This document shows positions 3,909 through 43,786 of a stretch of 64,000 nt of DNA, piece by piece. The DNA comes from an uncultured Draconibacterium sp. (lineage in GTDB: Bacteria; Bacteroidota; Bacteroidia; Bacteroidales; Prolixibacteraceae). The number at the start of each line of letters is the position of its first letter. The stretch's first letter is position 1. Below the pieces are notes generated by a model. It ran no database searches. It saw only the letters and a list, made by a program, of their open reading frames with translations, and was not told the origin of the DNA. Made by a program: the position numbers and the translations under genes. The stretch spans positions 976,001-1,040,000 of the forward strand of contig NZ_OY781884.1 in assembly GCF_963677155.1 (NCBI RefSeq), in the 5' to 3' direction.

Positions 3909-3989
3909 CCGTTTAAAATTAACAGGAAATCAGGTGCAGAAATCAATGGATTGATTCCCGAAACTTTGTTCCCGAAGTTCGTTCATCCT

Positions 3990-4175
3990 ATTGTTGGCAG
4001 GTCTTCTGACTTATCCCCTTTGATCATTGCCTTCCCGTCATTGGCTGAACCGACAGTGGCGTGAGTAATGATCAGTTTCAGGATTTACAGCTGCGGGTAC
4101 AGTTCCGGCTTTTCACCGGATTCCCTTTTCATCGTGTTTATAGTGCTATAAACCATCGAACCAAACTCGCCGACA
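3990..4175 (-). promoter_or_regulatory. Cobalamin riboswitch upstream of btuF
   Basis: The minus strand repeats the layout of the riboswitch at 798-990: AAAAGGGAATCCGGTGAAAA, the CCGGAACTGTACCCGCAGCT block with GTAAATCC (4081-4128), a variable hairpin region, and AGAAGACCTGCCAA at 3994-4007. It ends about 85 bases before the btuF start, so it should control the whole btuFCD operon. The region between it and the oxidase gene at 4281 shows nothing else. Confidence 0.93.
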
Positions 4176-4280
4176 AATATAAGCAGAATCTTTTCTGCCG
4201 AAAAGTTTTCGAATTTCTTTTGTGTTTTTTGAGGATAAGAATTGTGATGTTGCGGAGGTTAACATTTGTTTCTTTGGCAA

Positions 4281-5525
4281 TTAAACCCGCATCAGATCCA
4301 TATCAAAATCGGGAGTTTCGCCCGCTACCAACTGGCTGATAATTTTTCCGGTTATGGGGCCAAGGCTAACGCCCATCATAGCATGTCCGGTTGCCACAAG
4401 TAAGTTGTTGTATTTGTTTGTCCGGCCAATTATTGGAATTCCGGTTGGTGTAACCGGTCTCAAGCCTTCCCAGATATTTAATTTCCCGGCATCCAGTTTT
4501 TCCATATCTGGAAAGGCTTTTTGTGTTCGGTTAATTATTGCCTGAACCCGGTTTAACGCAACCTCACCTACCGTTCCGTTAAACTCCATTCCACTTCCCA
4601 AGCGTACTGTATTTTGAAAAGGAGTTAAAGCCACTTTAGCTTCCGTTAAAATTAGTGGTGTTTGCAACTTCAAATTGGCTTTGGGCAAATCAAAACTGTA
4701 ACCTTTCCCTGCAATTACCGAAACTTTTATTCCGACAGATGCGGCAAGTTTTGCAGAATAAGCGCCTGCAGCCAATACAAAGTCATCTGCTTTCAGTTTG
4801 CCCACAGTGGTATTTACTGCTGTAATTTCACCCTTTTCTACCTGAAAATTACTTACCGATGTATCGTAACGAAATACAACACCATTATCTTTTAAGTAGC
4901 TTTTTAGCCAGCGTAAATGAGCCTCCGGTGTAACATTCCCATCGGTTTTGTAAAGTAACGCACCGGCAACCTGCAAATCAGCCTCGGGCTCTATCACCTT
5001 CAGTTGCTGTTGATCAAGTAATTGCACCTCGCCTCCCAGATGATTGGCAATTCCGGCCAAAGCCACTTCCTCGTGCAACCCTTTTTCGGTTGTTGCCGCC
5101 ATTAACAATCCTTTATTAGAGAAACCACTTTGATTATCATTTTCCGTACTCAGCTGTTGGTACAGTTTTCGACTTTCGTCATTCAGCTTGTACAAAGTTG
5201 GAATGGCACGGGCAACCGTTTTCTTATTGGCAGCTTTCATAAATTTAAGAAACCACGGGAGCGAGGAAATATTTTTACCCGCTGGCAGATAAACGGGACT
5301 GGTTCTGTCGAGCATCATTTTAAAACCTGAACGTAACATTTCGGGCGACGCCAGTGGCACAAAATGACTGGGCACCAGCAATCCGCAATTTCCGTACGAA
5401 CAACCTTCTTCATTGTTTTCGCTGGTGGCTTCAATCACTTCCACCTCAAAACCAGCCTGATTCAGATAATAGGCGCAATGCAGACCGATTACGCCCGCTC
5501 CAATAACAATAATTTTCCTACTCAT
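4281..5525 (-). CDS. FAD-dependent D-amino acid oxidase/dehydrogenase, probably D-hydroxyproline dehydrogenase
   Basis: A 414-residue DadA/DAO-family flavoprotein. The N-terminus has the FAD-binding GAGVIG (residues 9-14), and the C-terminus has LRPVTPTGIPIIGRT and ATGHAMMGVSLGP, the second FAD-contact region of this family. By itself it could oxidise various D-amino or cyclic imino acids. Its place as last gene of an operon with a hydroxyproline epimerase, an HPC deaminase-like protein and a semialdehyde dehydrogenase makes oxidation of cis-4-hydroxy-D-proline to pyrroline-4-hydroxy-2-carboxylate the best reading (inference). It starts 6 bases after the epimerase stop. Confidence 0.8.
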   Translation of the reverse strand: MSRKIIVIGAGVIGLHCAYYLNQAGFEVEVIEATSENNEEGCSYGNCGLLVPSHFVPLASPEMLRSGFKMMLDRTSPVYLPAGKNISSLPWFLKFMKAANKKTVARAIPTLYKLNDESRKLYQQLSTENDNQSGFSNKGLLMAATTEKGLHEEVALAGIANHLGGEVQLLDQQQLKVIEPEADLQVAGALLYKTDGNVTPEAHLRWLKSYLKDNGVVFRYDTSVSNFQVEKGEITAVNTTVGKLKADDFVLAAGAYSAKLAASVGIKVSVIAGKGYSFDLPKANLKLQTPLILTEAKVALTPFQNTVRLGSGMEFNGTVGEVALNRVQAIINRTQKAFPDMEKLDAGKLNIWEGLRPVTPTGIPIIGRTNKYNNLLVATGHAMMGVSLGPITGKIISQLVAGETPDFDMDLMRV

Positions 5526-18974: not shown

Positions 18975-19811
18975 ATGAGACAAATATATTTCATATTATT
19001 TCTATTAACGGTTTCCGGGATTGCTTTCGGGCAAAATGAGCGAAAATTTGTACGCAACGGAAACAAGCTTTTTATGGAAGCCGTGCGCGACACTACCAAA
19101 ATCGATAGCGTAAAATTCAGCAATGCCGAAACAGAATACCGCAAGGCACTGGAAAAACGCCCCGAAGATTTGAAATGGAACTATAACCTGGCCGATGCCT
19201 TGTATAAACAGCAAAAGTTTGAAGATGCCGAAGGTAAATTTTCTGAACTGGCGGAGAAAATGGAAAATCCGAATGAGCGTGCCCGTGTTAACCACAACCT
19301 GGGAAATGCACAGCTGATGCAGGAAAAGCTGGATGAAAGTATTGAGTCGTATAAAAAAGCACTGCGCGAAAATCCCAATGATCCGGAAACAAAATACAAC
19401 CTGGCCTATGCGCAAATGCTAAAAAAGAAAAAAGAACAGCAACAGCAGCAAAATAAAGATCAAAACAAGGATCAGAATAAAGACAATAAGGACAAGAACA
19501 AAGACAAAAACGATCAGAATAAGGACAATCAGGATAAAAACAAAGACCAGAACAAGGACAAAAACGGTCAGAATAAGGACAACCAGGATAAAAACAAAGA
19601 CCAGAACAAGGATCAACAAGATCAGAATAAAGACAATAAGGACAAGAACAAAGACCAGCAGCAACAACAACCTCAGCAAAACAAGATTTCGAAACAGGAT
19701 GCTGAGCAACTGTTACAGGCCTTGCAAAACGATGAACGCGACATTCAGGATAAAGTAAAAAAGGCAAAAGCTGCCAAAGCCAAACGCACGCGATCGGAGA
19801 AAGAATGGTAG
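18975..19811 (+). CDS. batC: TPR protein BatC with a long Asn/Lys/Asp/Gln linker
   Basis: A 278-residue secreted protein: signal peptide (MRQIYFILFLLTVSGIAFG, then QNE), two or three TPR units (about residues 45-150; LKWNYNLADALYKQQKFEDA and ARVNHNLGNAQLMQEKLDES), then a strongly biased stretch of NKDQNKDKN-like repeats (about 155-232) and a basic C-terminus. The linker is coded by repeated DNA at 19440-19680 and so probably varies in length between strains. In the Bat cluster BatC is thought to act with BatB and BatE in the periplasm. Confidence 0.9.
   Translation: MRQIYFILFLLTVSGIAFGQNERKFVRNGNKLFMEAVRDTTKIDSVKFSNAETEYRKALEKRPEDLKWNYNLADALYKQQKFEDAEGKFSELAEKMENPNERARVNHNLGNAQLMQEKLDESIESYKKALRENPNDPETKYNLAYAQMLKKKKEQQQQQNKDQNKDQNKDNKDKNKDKNDQNKDNQDKNKDQNKDKNGQNKDNQDKNKDQNKDQQDQNKDNKDKNKDQQQQQPQQNKISKQDAEQLLQALQNDERDIQDKVKKAKAAKAKRTRSEKEW
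19440..19680 (+). repeat. Coding tandem repeat in batC
   Basis: Units such as AATAAAGATCAAAACAAGGA, GACAAGAACAAAGAC and AATCAGGATAAAAACAAAGA recur in frame and code for Asn-Lys-Asp-Gln/Lys runs. It is coding, AAA/AAC/GAT-rich and prone to slippage. Confidence 0.8.
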
Positions 19812-35307: not shown

Positions 35308-36627
35308 ATGGAATACATTAAGTACAGATTTTACCAGAAAGCGAATAAGTGCGCTAAGGAGTTTCAAAGACTCAAAAAAGATCATGCCGACGTGGTGCTG
35401 GGAGAAGTTAAACTAGGGCAAGTATTAACAGGAATGAAAGGTATACCGCTTTTGGTTACCGACACTTCAAAACTCGACCCGGAAGAGGGAATCCGTTTTA
35501 AAGGCTATTCAATTCCTGAATTGCGCGAGAAGCTACCAAAGATAAATCCAGATGGCGAACCTATTCCCGAAGGACTGCTTTACCTGATGTTAATCGGAGA
35601 AATCCCATCGCAGGAAGATGCGCTGAACCTGTCGAGAGACCTGGCAACACGTGCACACGTTCCGCAGCATACTTTCGATGTAATTGACGCGATGCCAAAA
35701 ACATCGAAGCCAATGACTCAGTTTAGTGCAGCTATTCTTTCCATGGCAACCGAATCGACTTTCCAGAAAGCATACCGTGCCGGTGTAAACAAAAAATATT
35801 TCTGGGATGCTACTTACGAAGACGTAATGAATCTGATTGCACGTTTACCACGTGTGGCGGCGTACATTTACCGTCGTCAGTTCCACAACGGCGATCATAT
35901 TGAGCCAAACCCACGTTTAGACTGGGCCGGTAACCTGGCACACATGATGGGGCACGACTCGGAAGAAATCCGTCGCTTGTTCCGTCTGTACATGATTATT
36001 CATGCCGACCACGAAGGAGGAAACGTATCGGCACACACCGCACACCTGGTAGGATCGGCTTTAAGTAATCCATACTATGCTTATTCGGCAGCAATGAACG
36101 GACTGGCCGGACCATTGCACGGACTGGCAAATCAGGATGTTATTTTCTGGATTTTTGAAATGATTGAAGAGCTGGATACCGACACACCTACCGACGAGCA
36201 GGTGGCCGAGTATTGTAGACATACGCTGGAAAGCGGCCGTGTAATTCCGGGTTACGGACACGCTGTATTGCGTAAAACCGACCCACGTTTTACCGCACAA
36301 CAGGAATTTGCCGACAAGTACATTAAAGAAGACAAAATGATTAACCTGGCTAACCAGTTGTACCGCGTTGTTCCTCCAATTCTGGGTTCAGTAGGAAAAA
36401 TTAAAAATCCATGGCCAAACGTTGATGCATACAGTGGTTCGTTGCTGTATCACTACGGAATTAAGGAATACACGTTCTACACCGTAATGTTTGGAGTATC
36501 GCGTGCATTGGGAGTATTGGCATCGTTGGTTAACGACCGTATTTACGGTATGCCAATCGAGCGCCCAACTTCGCACCCGTTGAGCTGGTTTAAAGATCAA
36601 GCTGAAGGAAAAGGATCAGATTGCTAA
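35308..36627 (+). CDS. gltA: Citrate synthase, eukaryote-like type I
   Basis: A 439-residue citrate synthase. Active-site segments are MNGLAGPLHGLANQDV, GYGHAVLRKTDPRF and, near the end, SRALGVLASLVNDR. The N-terminus (EVKLGQVLTGMKGIPLLVTD) is that of the dimeric, mitochondria-like group rather than the NADH-regulated hexameric enzyme. It condenses oxaloacetate and acetyl-CoA. It lies 25 bases after icd and before a strong terminator, so it ends the TCA block. Confidence 0.94.
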   Translation: MEYIKYRFYQKANKCAKEFQRLKKDHADVVLGEVKLGQVLTGMKGIPLLVTDTSKLDPEEGIRFKGYSIPELREKLPKINPDGEPIPEGLLYLMLIGEIPSQEDALNLSRDLATRAHVPQHTFDVIDAMPKTSKPMTQFSAAILSMATESTFQKAYRAGVNKKYFWDATYEDVMNLIARLPRVAAYIYRRQFHNGDHIEPNPRLDWAGNLAHMMGHDSEEIRRLFRLYMIIHADHEGGNVSAHTAHLVGSALSNPYYAYSAAMNGLAGPLHGLANQDVIFWIFEMIEELDTDTPTDEQVAEYCRHTLESGRVIPGYGHAVLRKTDPRFTAQQEFADKYIKEDKMINLANQLYRVVPPILGSVGKIKNPWPNVDAYSGSLLYHYGIKEYTFYTVMFGVSRALGVLASLVNDRIYGMPIERPTSHPLSWFKDQAEGKGSDC

Positions 36628-36733: not shown

Positions 36734-37264
36734 TTATTCTGTTATTAGTTCCGATTTTCCACTAAATAGATGGTCGAAAATTGGTCGAAAATCTTTCCAT
36801 TGAATAATAATCAGAAATACTCCAATATTTACCAGTACATCTGCAACGTTAAAAACCGGAAAATTATATTCATAAAAATAGTGAACATGCAAGAAGTCTG
36901 TTACAAATCCATTAAACATCCTATCCAGGATATTTCCATAGGCACCACCAATCAAAATAAAAAACGGAAGTAATAATCTGAATTTTCGATCTTTAATTTT
37001 CCAAATCATTACGAAAGCAAACAGGGTTGCAGAAATAGTAAGTAGAAAAATTAACGGAAGTCTGATACTACGTTTAATTGAACTTAAAAAGCCAAAAGCA
37101 ATTGAGTGATTCTCCACATATCGAAGGTCAAAAGCATTTTCAATTAATACGATTGAATTTTCTTTCAAATTTGTTTTGGCAAGTTCTTTTGTTTTTAAAT
37201 CGGCTGAACACCCCGAAATCATAAATGATATTAAAATCAAATACTTAATTATTGTCCTTTTCAT
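36734..37264 (-). CDS. lspA: Signal peptidase II (lipoprotein signal peptidase) family protein
   Basis: A 176-residue membrane protein with four hydrophobic segments. The catalytic Asp pair is visible in GGAYGNILDR and VFNVADVLVN, and YVENHSIAFGF matches the usual N-x-x-x-AFG region. It is divergent from the common LspA and sits in an AT-rich accessory stretch, so it may be an extra copy rather than the housekeeping gene. SGCSADLKTK in helix 1 resembles a lipobox, but it aligns with the normal end of LspA helix 1. Confidence 0.82.
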   Translation of the reverse strand: MKRTIIKYLILISFMISGCSADLKTKELAKTNLKENSIVLIENAFDLRYVENHSIAFGFLSSIKRSIRLPLIFLLTISATLFAFVMIWKIKDRKFRLLLPFFILIGGAYGNILDRMFNGFVTDFLHVHYFYEYNFPVFNVADVLVNIGVFLIIIQWKDFRPIFDHLFSGKSELITE

Positions 37265-38163: not shown

Positions 38164-38170
38164 AAGCACA

Positions 38171-38298
38171 GCGGTTGGTACATGTTCTCGAGGCGGATTT
38201 CGGAGCGCGTCAGTGTCCGAAAGGACATGACGGTCAAGAAAGGAGCAGAGACAACGAACACCACTGACCCCGCAATGCAATTTACAATTGTTAGGCAC
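38171..38298 (-). repeat. Folded attC-like repeat, copy 1
   Basis: On the minus strand it starts with GCCTAACAATTG (fits the attC end RYYYAAC) and ends with CATGTACCAACCGC. It shares GGTTGGTACATGTT, GGCGGATTTCGG and TGTCCGAAAGGACA with the copy at 38884-39003, in the same orientation. The centre folds as a GC-rich hairpin (GTCC/GGAC). It lies directly after the stop of the lipoprotein gene. Confidence 0.55.
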
Positions 38299-38852: not shown

Positions 38853-38883
38853 ATTGATATGTTTTTATTTTCATTTATATCTA

Positions 38884-39003
38884 ACGGTTGGTACATGTTG
38901 TCGGGGCGGATTTCGGGGAGCGTTCCTGTCCGAAGGACACGGAACTGCGATGCGAGAATCCGCAGTTGGCGTACCACCGAACCCCGCCCTGCAATATGTA
39001 CTG
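38884..39003 (-). repeat. Folded attC-like repeat, copy 2, cut by the IS element
   Basis: The arms GTACATGTTGTCGGGGCGG (38891-38909) and ACCCCGCCCTGCAATATGTA (38981-39000) are near-perfect reverse complements, with inner stems GCGGATT/AATCCGC and GTTCC/GGAAC. The minus-strand end ACCGTTAGAT (38881 side) fits the attC end GTTRRRY. The other end is interrupted by the IS at about 39007; a matching TTTTGTTAGCA remnant follows the IS at 40743. Confidence 0.6.
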
Positions 39004-39006
39004 TGT

Positions 39007-40739
39007 GCCTGTTGCCCAACTCACCATTGTTTGTTAACAAATCTAACAATATATTCTTGAGTAATCAATTACCATTCATTAACTTGTATATAAAAATGCA
39101 AGGGAAGAAAGTTTATTCTGAGAAACTATTTTCAAACTTCCAGTTATCACAACGCGTTCCCCGAAACAATTTTTACCGCCGATTAAAAGAAGTGCTTAAC
39201 CTTTCGTTTTTATACAAAACCACAGGCGTATATTATGGCAATTGTGGTCAAAAGAGCATCGATCCGGTTGTGTTCTTTAAGTTGTGCATGGTTGGTTATC
39301 TCGAAAATATTATCAGCGACAGGAAAATCATAGAGCATTGTTCTATGCGCCTGGACATCCTGTTCTTTTTAGGTTTCGACATTGATGAAGACTTACCGTG
39401 GCACAGCACACTAAGTCGCACACGCCAATTATTCCCCGAAAGTCTATTTGAATGCGTATTTGAAAAGGTGTTGGCAATGTGCATCGAAAAAGGGATGGTT
39501 GCCGGACATACGCAGGCTATTGATTCGGCACCTGTAAAAGCCAATGCCAGCATGGACAGCGTTGAGTTAAAAGTGCCGGAAGAGAAGCTGGAAGACTATA
39601 TCCGTAAGGCACGTTATCTAAGCAGCCCCGAGCGCAAGGCCAAACAGAATCGGGCAAGCGATAAACAGCAAACAGTAACGGCAAGCAACAGAGAACTAAA
39701 AGCACTGCAAAGCCGTACGAAAAACTGGCAAAAGACACAAGACCAGCGACCGGGAGCAGGCAACAAAGGCGCTAAGTACACCAGCAACAAAACGCATTAC
39801 AGTCCAACCGATCCTGATGCACGGATAAGTGTAAAACCGGGCAAAGCCAGGAAATTAAATTATCTGAGTCAGTTGGGGGTTGATTCGGCCAACCATGTTA
39901 TTACCCATATCCAGGCCGATTTTGCCGATAAAAAAGATAGCCAGTGCCTGCAACCTATAACAAGACAATTAAAACGCAAGTTGTGGAAACAGGGTTTGCA
40001 CTGGCAAAACCTACTGGCTGACACAGGGTACAGCAGCGGCGAAAACTATGCATTTCTTGAACAGCCTGGCATTACGGCTTATATTCCGCCACATGGAACG
40101 TACAAAGGAGGACCGGAGAATTTTACCTACATAAAGGATGGCGATTACTGGCTATGCCGGAATAACAAAAAGATTACTTTCAGAAAAATAACTGTAGAAA
40201 CGAGCAAGAACAATAACAAAAAGAGGCTGTACTTAACCCGTGCAAGTGACTGTAAAAACTGCCCATATAAAGTTGAATGTGCAGGCAAAGCTCCCGAAAA
40301 GAGAATCGCTGTAACCATTTATAAAGAAGAATACGAACGAGTAATTGCCCGAATAAAAAGCAAACCGGGCAGGTGCATGAAAAGCAAACGGCAATCGACT
40401 GTAGAGCCGGTTTTTGGTACTTTAACCCAATTTCTTGGAATGCGAAAGGTAAATACCCGTGGTATTGCCGCAGCCAATAAGTGCATGCTTATGTCGGCAG
40501 TAGCGTACAACCTTAAAAAGTACCTCAGGTTTGAGCAAAAACATATAAAAAGTGGGGCAAAAACGCCCATTTCTTTTATTCGTCAGCCAAAACATGAAAG
40601 CAAAGCCAAAATCAACCTTTTACAGCCTTGTTATTATTTGAATTAGAAACAGAAACCTATAAGAAACAAAGCCTTAAAAAGCTCTATTTAGAGGCTCAAT
40701 TATTAGAAATCAAAGAAAAAATGGGGTTGTGCATCAGCT
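39007..40739 (+). mobile_element. IS1182-type insertion sequence
   Basis: One transposase gene is framed by imperfect terminal repeats: left GCCTGTTGCCCAACTCACCA (39007-39026) compared with the reverse complement of the right end, AGCTGATGCACAACCCCATT (40720-40739). The element sits in an attC-like repeat. The ends are estimated by eye and could be off by several bases; no target duplication was identified. Confidence 0.7.
39096..40646 (+). CDS. IS1182-family transposase
   Basis: A 516-residue DDE transposase. DIDEDLPWHSTLSRTRQLFP, then HTQAIDSAPVKANASMDS (first catalytic Asp), LADTGYSSGENY (second Asp), a Cys cluster DCKNCPYKVEC and STVEPVFGTLTQFLGMRK (catalytic Glu) follow the IS1182 order. 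I chose the ATG at 39096; the open frame runs further upstream to 38859, but that part is the folded repeat read as protein. It appears complete and possibly active. Confidence 0.93.
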   Translation: MQGKKVYSEKLFSNFQLSQRVPRNNFYRRLKEVLNLSFLYKTTGVYYGNCGQKSIDPVVFFKLCMVGYLENIISDRKIIEHCSMRLDILFFLGFDIDEDLPWHSTLSRTRQLFPESLFECVFEKVLAMCIEKGMVAGHTQAIDSAPVKANASMDSVELKVPEEKLEDYIRKARYLSSPERKAKQNRASDKQQTVTASNRELKALQSRTKNWQKTQDQRPGAGNKGAKYTSNKTHYSPTDPDARISVKPGKARKLNYLSQLGVDSANHVITHIQADFADKKDSQCLQPITRQLKRKLWKQGLHWQNLLADTGYSSGENYAFLEQPGITAYIPPHGTYKGGPENFTYIKDGDYWLCRNNKKITFRKITVETSKNNNKKRLYLTRASDCKNCPYKVECAGKAPEKRIAVTIYKEEYERVIARIKSKPGRCMKSKRQSTVEPVFGTLTQFLGMRKVNTRGIAAANKCMLMSAVAYNLKKYLRFEQKHIKSGAKTPISFIRQPKHESKAKINLLQPCYYLN

Positions 40740-41417: not shown

Positions 41418-41728
41418 GATTCGTTTTTATGTGCCTCAATTATAGAGCGGTTATTTCAATTATTGCTAACCAGTTAGCATCACCATTATTGTTATAGCGC
41501 TTATAGCGCCTGAAAAAAGTATTGTTATACACCAAAAATGGAGACATAACAACACATATTATAGTTACTATTTTTTATTGTTATTCCAGGGCGTGCATTC
41601 ACGGTATTCAATTTTAGTGCCTTAAAACTAAACATATTTTTTATGTTTTTGGCAGTTAAGTTTTAAACTACAACAACATAAGCTTTCGACGTGGTGTGGC
41701 GCGAAGGAAAATAACAGTTCAGATACTT

Positions 41729-42000
41729 GTTTTGCGAACGAAACATAAAAAAATATTTTCAAAACAGATGTTCTACAAACAAAACAAACATCTGAATTTT
41801 TAAAATGGGTGTTTTACGCGCAAAAAAAAAGCTCAACCGTCAGGATTCATGTTTTGCGCACAAAACATGAAAAAAATATTTTCAAACAGATGTTTTACAA
41901 ATAAAACAAGCATCTGAATTTTCAAAATGGGCATTTTACGCGCAGAATATAAAGCTCAACCGTCAGGATTGTTGTTCTGTCCGCAAAACAAAAAAGTCAA
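41729..42000. repeat. Array of seven 41-bp units with a palindromic motif and a 123-bp higher-order period
   Basis: Units start at 41729, 41770, 41811, 41851, 41892, 41933 and 41974. Each begins with a version of GTTTTGCGCACAAAAC, a near-perfect palindrome (others: GTTTTGCGAACGAAAC, GTTCTACAAACAAAAC, GTTTTACGCGCAAAAA, GTTTTACAAATAAAAC, ATTTTACGCGCAGAAT, GTTCTGTCCGCAAAAC). The roughly 25-base intervals repeat every third unit (units 1 and 4, 2 and 5, 3 and 6), and CAGATG...CATCTG pairs across unit borders in both copies. There is no ORF. The rest of the 41418-42169 gap is AT-rich, with a small palindrome GCTAACCAGTTAGC at 41464. Confidence 0.9.
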
Positions 42001-42116
42001 CCACTCATTTTTAACAAATACCCCAAACAATTGTCTCCTCTGTCCAACTATATTAATTTTAAACTAACACCACAATAACTTGTTGATCACTTAACACACG
42101 GTATAAATTATTTGTA

Positions 42117-42124
42117 TACGTTTG
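42117..42124 (+). promoter_or_regulatory. Candidate -7 promoter element of the ABC-F gene
   Basis: TACGTTTG followed by CACC matches the Bacteroidota -7 consensus TAnnTTTG, 46 bases before the ATG at 42170. A -33 TTTG at the standard distance is not obvious. Confidence 0.4.
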
Positions 42125-42154
42125 CACCGCCTTTGAAAAAAGGGAAAAAATTGA

Positions 42155-43786
<1,632 letters not shown>

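Follow-up and report, generated by a model that had tools for sequence, protein, structure and literature searches.

The gap upstream of an ABC-F gene in an uncultured Draconibacterium sp. holds an array of seven 41-bp units, each headed by a palindromic core. The array is an optional, intergenic, low-copy repeat element of Draconibacterium, and comparison of its sequences suggests an optional phased row of putative DNA-binding or DNA-bending sites between genes, carried within a MITE- or minisatellite-like element. We put the chances of this reading at about even.

Structure of the array in the window

In the window (the whole stretch of 64,000 nucleotides that was analysed), the gap at 41418-42169 contains the array at 41729-41989 (no strand assigned), with 16-bp cores that follow RTTTTN6AAAAY with few changes. 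The units start at 41729, 41770, 41811, 41851, 41892, 41933 and 41974; re-reading these starts gave steps of 41, 41, 40, 41, 41 and 41 bp, identical to those of the original prediction, which had described seven palindrome-headed units. The best chain of seven units paired 39 of 56 positions, whereas 150 shuffles that kept the dinucleotides averaged 27.4 (sd 1.5) and did not exceed 31, and the palindrome consensus proposed earlier matched the window 20 times with up to two mismatches (6.8 expected). Among the lags tested 123 bp scored highest (0.62, followed by 0.50 at 41 bp and 0.43 at 82 bp), which bears out the three-unit period of about 123 bp previously noticed in the intervals. Three unit types recur in order, units 4-6 resembling units 1-3, and TRF described the array as a 122-bp unit repeated twice. 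No ORF of at least 60 aa was listed as spanning the array, and 41 is no multiple of three. A normal CRISPR had already been dismissed, rightly, as the repeats are variable and the intervals recur with the 123-bp period; the Rfam match to CRISPR-DR61 reached E 0.18 and 24.1 bits, compared with a gathering threshold of 38.

The array is preceded by a leader that extends from the head-site core to the first unit (41660-41728, + strand). The leader is kept beside both other copies in the same genome, and more weakly beside the arrays of four relatives (G036, G034, G027 and G007). To its left lies a conserved core around TTTTAGTGCCTTAAAACTAAACATATTTTTTATG (41590-41660, no strand assigned), which recurs behind other cassette genes in relatives. 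On the right, the ABC-F upstream region (41990-42169, + strand), which occurs without the array in other species, leads to the gene of an ABC-F family ATPase of 538 aa (42170-43786, + strand), a neighbour outside the element. Cassette-like repeats on one side and an ABC-F gene on the other are the surroundings that had been predicted.

Conservation of core, spacing and unit order

The unit was defined from 15 arrays with 103 units, which gave 97 distinct 42-nt windows; array L081, a near copy of L082, was omitted from these counts, and the arrays of G003 and G009, which were used at the amidotransferase locus described below, stand outside the 97. The core consensus of the 15 arrays is RTTTTN6AAAAY. 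T3, T5 and A14 never vary among the distinct units, and T2 is found in 96 of 97; the units were located by a motif that itself contains the T4/A4 positions, and within the 15 arrays no unit is missing. Steps of exactly 41 bp account for 84 of 92 (36-46 allowed), and the other eight are 39 (three times), 42 (twice), 40, 36 and 45, of which the 36 and three values of L096 fall at array ends. One or two places past the array ends the slots look unrelated in most arrays. Three arrays (L087, L096 and L088) show an interval-like stretch outside the first core (0.84, 0.72 and 0.68) that lacks a good core of its own, so that decayed end units may be under-counted. A second palindrome at half the period was considered as a general rule and rejected, since it reached p<0.05 in just three of 13 other arrays (L222, L117, L224).

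The 123-bp lag outscored every other lag tested in all 12 arrays analysed, though by just 0.03-0.04 in L096 and L091. The three-unit order therefore characterises the genus and did not arise by recent duplication within the genome of origin, which was the alternative raised earlier.

Copies in the genome and in the genus

The genome of origin (G000; one contig, 5,268,975 bases) contains four further matches at three places. Two are arrays 90-93% identical to that of the window, one with eight units and a decayed end (C1:1430410-1430884) and one with four units (C1:3706740-3707142), and the third place, at 1196726, holds a degenerate fragment. Behind the array at C1:3706740 follows a stretch that matches 42013-42114 of the ABC-F upstream region, which suggests that one array arose by copying of the other along with its flank. 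In G034 a 1.23-kb segment comprising leader, array and a DUF6261 gene occurs twice with 98% identity, and the identity starts at the conserved core.

A 531-bp query found a match somewhere in 15 of 37 Draconibacterium genomes. We compiled 18 arrays in 10 of the 37, a count that is our reading of several searches and may miss very diverged arrays: three each in G000 and G034, two each in G005, G007, G027 and G035, and one each in G001, G003, G009 and G036. The search of relatives for the palindrome at 41-bp spacing, which had been recommended at the outset, thus recovered phased copies. It had also been stated that unrelated sequence in this gap in relatives, together with a lack of other phased copies, would speak against a functional array; the gap is indeed unrelated in some relatives, yet other phased copies exist. 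As the searches gave no array in most genomes of the genus, it is dispensable. A genome scan with a strict three-unit pattern returned 16 stretches, of which five belong to Draconibacterium; the 11 from other organisms include some tandem arrays with other intervals (e.g. L196, L198, L199 and L204) and some chance-like matches. The same pattern had no matches in viral contigs, and a virus origin was rejected. A two-unit pattern was noisy: it matched 28 of 37 genus genomes, and in many of them a control gave similar numbers.

In arrays of the iteron or parS type, short binding sites for a protein recur in helical phase, a feature that the Draconibacterium arrays share. The latter, however, occur in a minority of the genus. 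This distribution, with arrays in 10 of 37 genomes (diverged ones may be missed) and 17 of 24 orthologous gaps empty, is too patchy for a partition site, which would be present throughout the lineage, and makes the partition or iteron option of the original prediction unlikely.

Presence and absence at orthologous gaps

Upstream of the ABC-F gene the array was present in two of six fetched loci, the window itself and G036, where four units are separated from the ABC-F gene by a DDE transposase gene. G031 and G032 have a different sequence in this gap, and in G034 and G027 the ABC-F upstream region is present and gave no array match. The suggested comparison beside the ABC-F gene therefore confirmed the array at a minority of these loci and did not find it at the others.

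A larger comparison was possible behind the gene of a 187-aa glutamine amidotransferase, which has a close ortholog in 24 of the 37 genus genomes and is adjoined convergently by asnB in 21 of these 24 (asnB was not found in L177, L179 and L180). Seven of the 24 genomes have a chain of at least three units in this gap, beginning about 5-45 bp past the stop codon; in the other 17, including the genome of origin, the longest chain comprises two units. On the amidotransferase tree the array presence needs at least four changes. All seven carriers fall inside one group of 13 (support 94/89), and a single origin is compatible with the well-supported branches. This gap, occupied in some species and empty in others, lends itself to a direct test, and the core positions change far less than fourfold codon sites do. 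By eye, other repeats accumulate in the same gap in L162, L164 and L168-L170, one of them framed by TTTCGTCCGGG and its inverse and one with CGCAAAGAAAAGAAGAAGCGC.

Apparent constraint on the DNA sequence

Divergence was compared in the 21 pairs formed by the seven carriers at the amidotransferase locus, which together have 44 units. Between carriers, differences amount to 0-4% at the eight T4/A4 positions, 20-56% at the six middle bases and 8-39% in the intervals. Fourfold codon sites differ by 9-52% in the 21 pairs, or by 28-52% without the close pair G009/G005. In the 20 pairs that have any T4/A4 difference, fourfold sites diverge 7- to about 50-fold more than the T4/A4 positions. Because matching each unit to its nearest counterpart lowers the values for intervals and middle bases, the contrast with T4/A4 is conservative.

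The original prediction had left room for a repeated RNA structure. Such a transcribed RNA of repeated hairpins, which might act as a 3' UTR stabiliser, a sponge or a small RNA, would fit the position of several arrays after gene 3' ends and the predicted folding of the window array (z = -3.7 for one strand and -3.2 for the other). Hairpins also form at the palindromes, which is compatible with a single-strand role. Across 15 arrays, however, folding shows no strand preference, the window strand being lower in seven and the opposite strand in eight. In the palindromes 90.7% of cells are paired, compared with 88.2% in shuffles, and double changes were found in 33 cells (16.6 in shuffles), all at the outermost and innermost pairs; the four T-A pairs had no double change in 387 cells. 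The number of pair types and the number of double-change pairs did not rise above shuffles, which equalled or exceeded them, and with three flanking pairs added the paired share falls to 78.7%, a value reached by 40 of 500 shuffles. These pair counts did not support a conserved RNA fold. The stems CAGATGTT/AACATCTG and CAGATGTT/AGCATCTG are present in the window as described earlier, but the A-T to wobble change between them is no evidence of RNA covariation, because the wobble form AAGCATCTG is the commoner form in other arrays. One array (L089) is flanked on both sides by terminator-like hairpins that belong to convergent genes, another (L080) lies behind one such hairpin, and Rfam found nothing above threshold in the window and, over the array at E 1, just below-threshold matches. 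We consider a transcribed RNA improbable. Conservation of T4/A4 and of the 41-bp step, the lack of strand preference and the absence of double T-A changes point to a double-stranded DNA signal, and what seems to be constrained is the sequence and spacing of the DNA rather than an RNA fold.

In all 12 arrays tested, the curvature predicted with a wedge model exceeded the average of a control that keeps the period, with p between 0.007 and 0.235; the window array, at p 0.165, was not significant. The curvature of the arrays thus appears raised and weakly significant against this control.

Putative phased binding sites or a minisatellite

Taken as a phased array, the element has a conserved core, a constant helical phase and free intervals. 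The cores would be recognition sites in double-stranded DNA, placed about four helical turns apart and, as 41 bp is close to four turns, on one face of the DNA, where a putative DNA-binding or DNA-bending protein might occupy them cooperatively. The array would grow and shrink mainly in 123-bp steps by recombination or slippage, and would spread as a passenger through segment duplication and possibly through the adjoining cassette system. Homogenisation within arrays can also maintain spacing and sequence without selection. In its general form, the cooperative protein-binding array first proposed agrees with the phased conserved palindromes, the copies in relatives and the constraint on T4/A4 and spacing; its iteron and partition variants are unlikely, and its nucleoid-binding variant may apply. 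If a protein reads the cores, Bacteroidota would have a regulatory or DNA-organising factor that acts through optional, copy-variable arrays.

Bacterial intergenic minisatellites are usually regarded as neutral or selfish, and a neutral or selfish minisatellite in a MITE-like element, of the kind of 464/PgRS or BrickBuilt, is the main rival. Slippage would amplify the units and template switching at hairpins would keep the palindromes, with no binding involved. This reading, possible but on the unlikely side, would account for a leader and tandem array in gaps, the low copy number, the restriction to a single genus and the patchy presence, as well as for the 98% identical duplication of the array-bearing segment in G034. 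Template switching, however, preserves pairing and not sequence, whereas not one of the four T-A pairs shows a change of both partners, and fourfold sites diverge far more than T4/A4 (7- to about 50-fold in the 20 pairs). In addition, no inverted ends frame leader and array among six inverted pairs and ends compared by eye.

Comparison with known repeat elements

Porphyromonas gingivalis belongs to the same class as Draconibacterium, and its 464/PgRS element with 41-nt tandem repeats is, compared by description, the closest known system. It is a dispersed element with 41-nt tandem direct repeats (PMC4596501, PMC5771137) that is reported to have IS5-like terminal inverted repeats, about 10-20 copies, repetitive flanks and no matches outside P. 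gingivalis (PMC4596501). On these descriptions the likeness lies in 41-nt tandem direct repeats within a dispersed, low-copy, non-coding intergenic element; the differences are the IS5-like terminal inverted repeats, the repetitive flanks and the single-species spread of 464/PgRS (PMC4596501). Among six inverted pairs and ends compared by eye, no terminal inverted repeats frame the Draconibacterium element, inspection by eye showed no target-site duplication, and the ends of its copies are not sharp. BrickBuilt of P. gingivalis consists of a leader, 23-nt repeats and a tail, is always intergenic with a variable unit number and has 19 copies (PMC4596501). It resembles the Draconibacterium array in its leader with tandem units, its intergenic position and its variable unit number, and differs in the 23-nt units, the tail segment, the 19 copies and the terminal inverted repeats of some copies; the word palindrome is absent from the text searched (PMC4596501).

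REPs of the GTAG/CGTC type are tagged extragenic palindromes that mostly form head-to-head dimers at high copy number (PMC3733652). Clustered extragenic palindromes, often at gene 3' ends, are a likeness to such elements and to BIMEs, and together with five Y1_Tnp matches in the own genome they would be expected if a REP-associated tyrosine transposase had spread the array in the manner of REPs or BIMEs. In contrast to REPs as described there, the Draconibacterium array lacks the tag, the head-to-head dimers and the high copy number: its copies are few and head-to-tail, and an unpaired end tag is not apparent among the 97 distinct units, with GTAG or CTAC in six and CGTC in 21. None of the five Y1_Tnp loci is flanked by the array, the best array-like match in their 1.5-kb flanks being no better than E 0.2. 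We regard this origin as very improbable. The literature matches listed, a partial view, included none on such arrays in Draconibacterium.

Recurrence of the core in Bacteroidia

The same core recurs in arrays with unrelated intervals. In the own genome a second family with 42-bp steps and the T4N6A4 core was found at C1:340192-340331 (L221), with related arrays in G003, G005, G007 and G009, and genomes of families f9 and f26 contain further, non-homologous 42-bp arrays with this core. In 295 genomes of the class, a three-core pattern with gaps of 26-28 had 64 forward matches in nine genomes, and with gaps of 12-42 it had 131 matches in 48 genomes; for the latter the periods were taken among the matches listed. 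Nine of 961 gap combinations (0.9%) hold 49% of the three-core matches, many of which come from few tandem arrays. A reversed control pattern had 52 of its 170 matches at 40-42 bp spacing, whereas the real pattern had 64 of 131, and the excess may therefore reflect in part a general preference of tandem repeats for periods of this length.

The flanking bases were analysed with a search pattern that fixed T4N6A4 and left the adjoining bases free. In 11 arrays R stands beside the core in 80 of 85 units and Y in 77 of 85, these arrays not being independent, as five form one Draconibacterium family and three of those from f9 look alike; among 21 lone T4N6A4 matches in the window the numbers are five and six. 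RTTTTN6AAAAY arrays at about four turns might accordingly represent a general, undescribed cis-acting system of Bacteroidia that is read by a conserved DNA-architectural protein, a suggestion that we consider doubtful and put forward only tentatively.

The adjoining integron-like cassette system

Next to the conserved core lies a type II head-site repeat of the cassette array (41463-41590, - strand), with further copies in the genome. Two attC-like cassette sites of type I, both with approximate ends, are located at 38166-38296 (- strand), beginning with GCCTAAC, and at 38877-39040 (- strand), ending with CCGTTAGAT; of the attC-like sites in the window, one begins GCCTAAC and one ends GTTAGAT. 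The own genome contains at least 40 matches to one of these sites (the best 40 of 88 candidates), many of them clustered, and clusters lie in G000 near 74-100, 154, 1150-1166, 4305-4331 and 5128-5139 kb. Such clusters are predicted cassette arrays.

At about 1150 kb (G000:C1), a gene for a 378-aa tyrosine recombinase (L207:1186-2322) has a head-site repeat directly downstream. The protein scored 222.2 bits with the NCBIfam XerA/integron-integrase model (cut-off 220) and 211.1 bits of the 265 of the integron model. Behind each of the other head-site copies lies a gene, and such a recombinase is absent within the approximately 1.5 kb read. To judge by these features, the cassette system looks integron-like, with separate head sites, and the cassette array next to the window array would add an integron-like system whose head sites lie away from any integrase.

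Both in the window and at 1430 kb, a head-site repeat has the array on its outer side, as if the array were an accessory recombinase-binding region of the adjoining head site. Such a role is highly unlikely: the arrays at the amidotransferase locus and at L089/L090 have no head-site repeat in the flanks read, and no array lies within about 1.5 kb of the remaining head-site copies. Since arrays at other loci occur without a head site in these flanks, the link to cassettes is one of neighbourhood and not a rule.

The cassette region of the window also contains an IS, with a DDE transposase ORF at 38859-40646 whose first codons overlap an attC-like stretch. At the left of the cassette stretch lies a signal peptidase II gene (36734-37264, - strand), which adjoins a citrate synthase gene (35308-36627). 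Elsewhere in the window, 19458-19658 holds probably coding tandem repeats whose periods are 54, 33, 21 and 15 bp and in which GAC, AAC and AAA triplets abound, and two cobalamin riboswitches are present at 784-999 and 3979-4181 (- strand).
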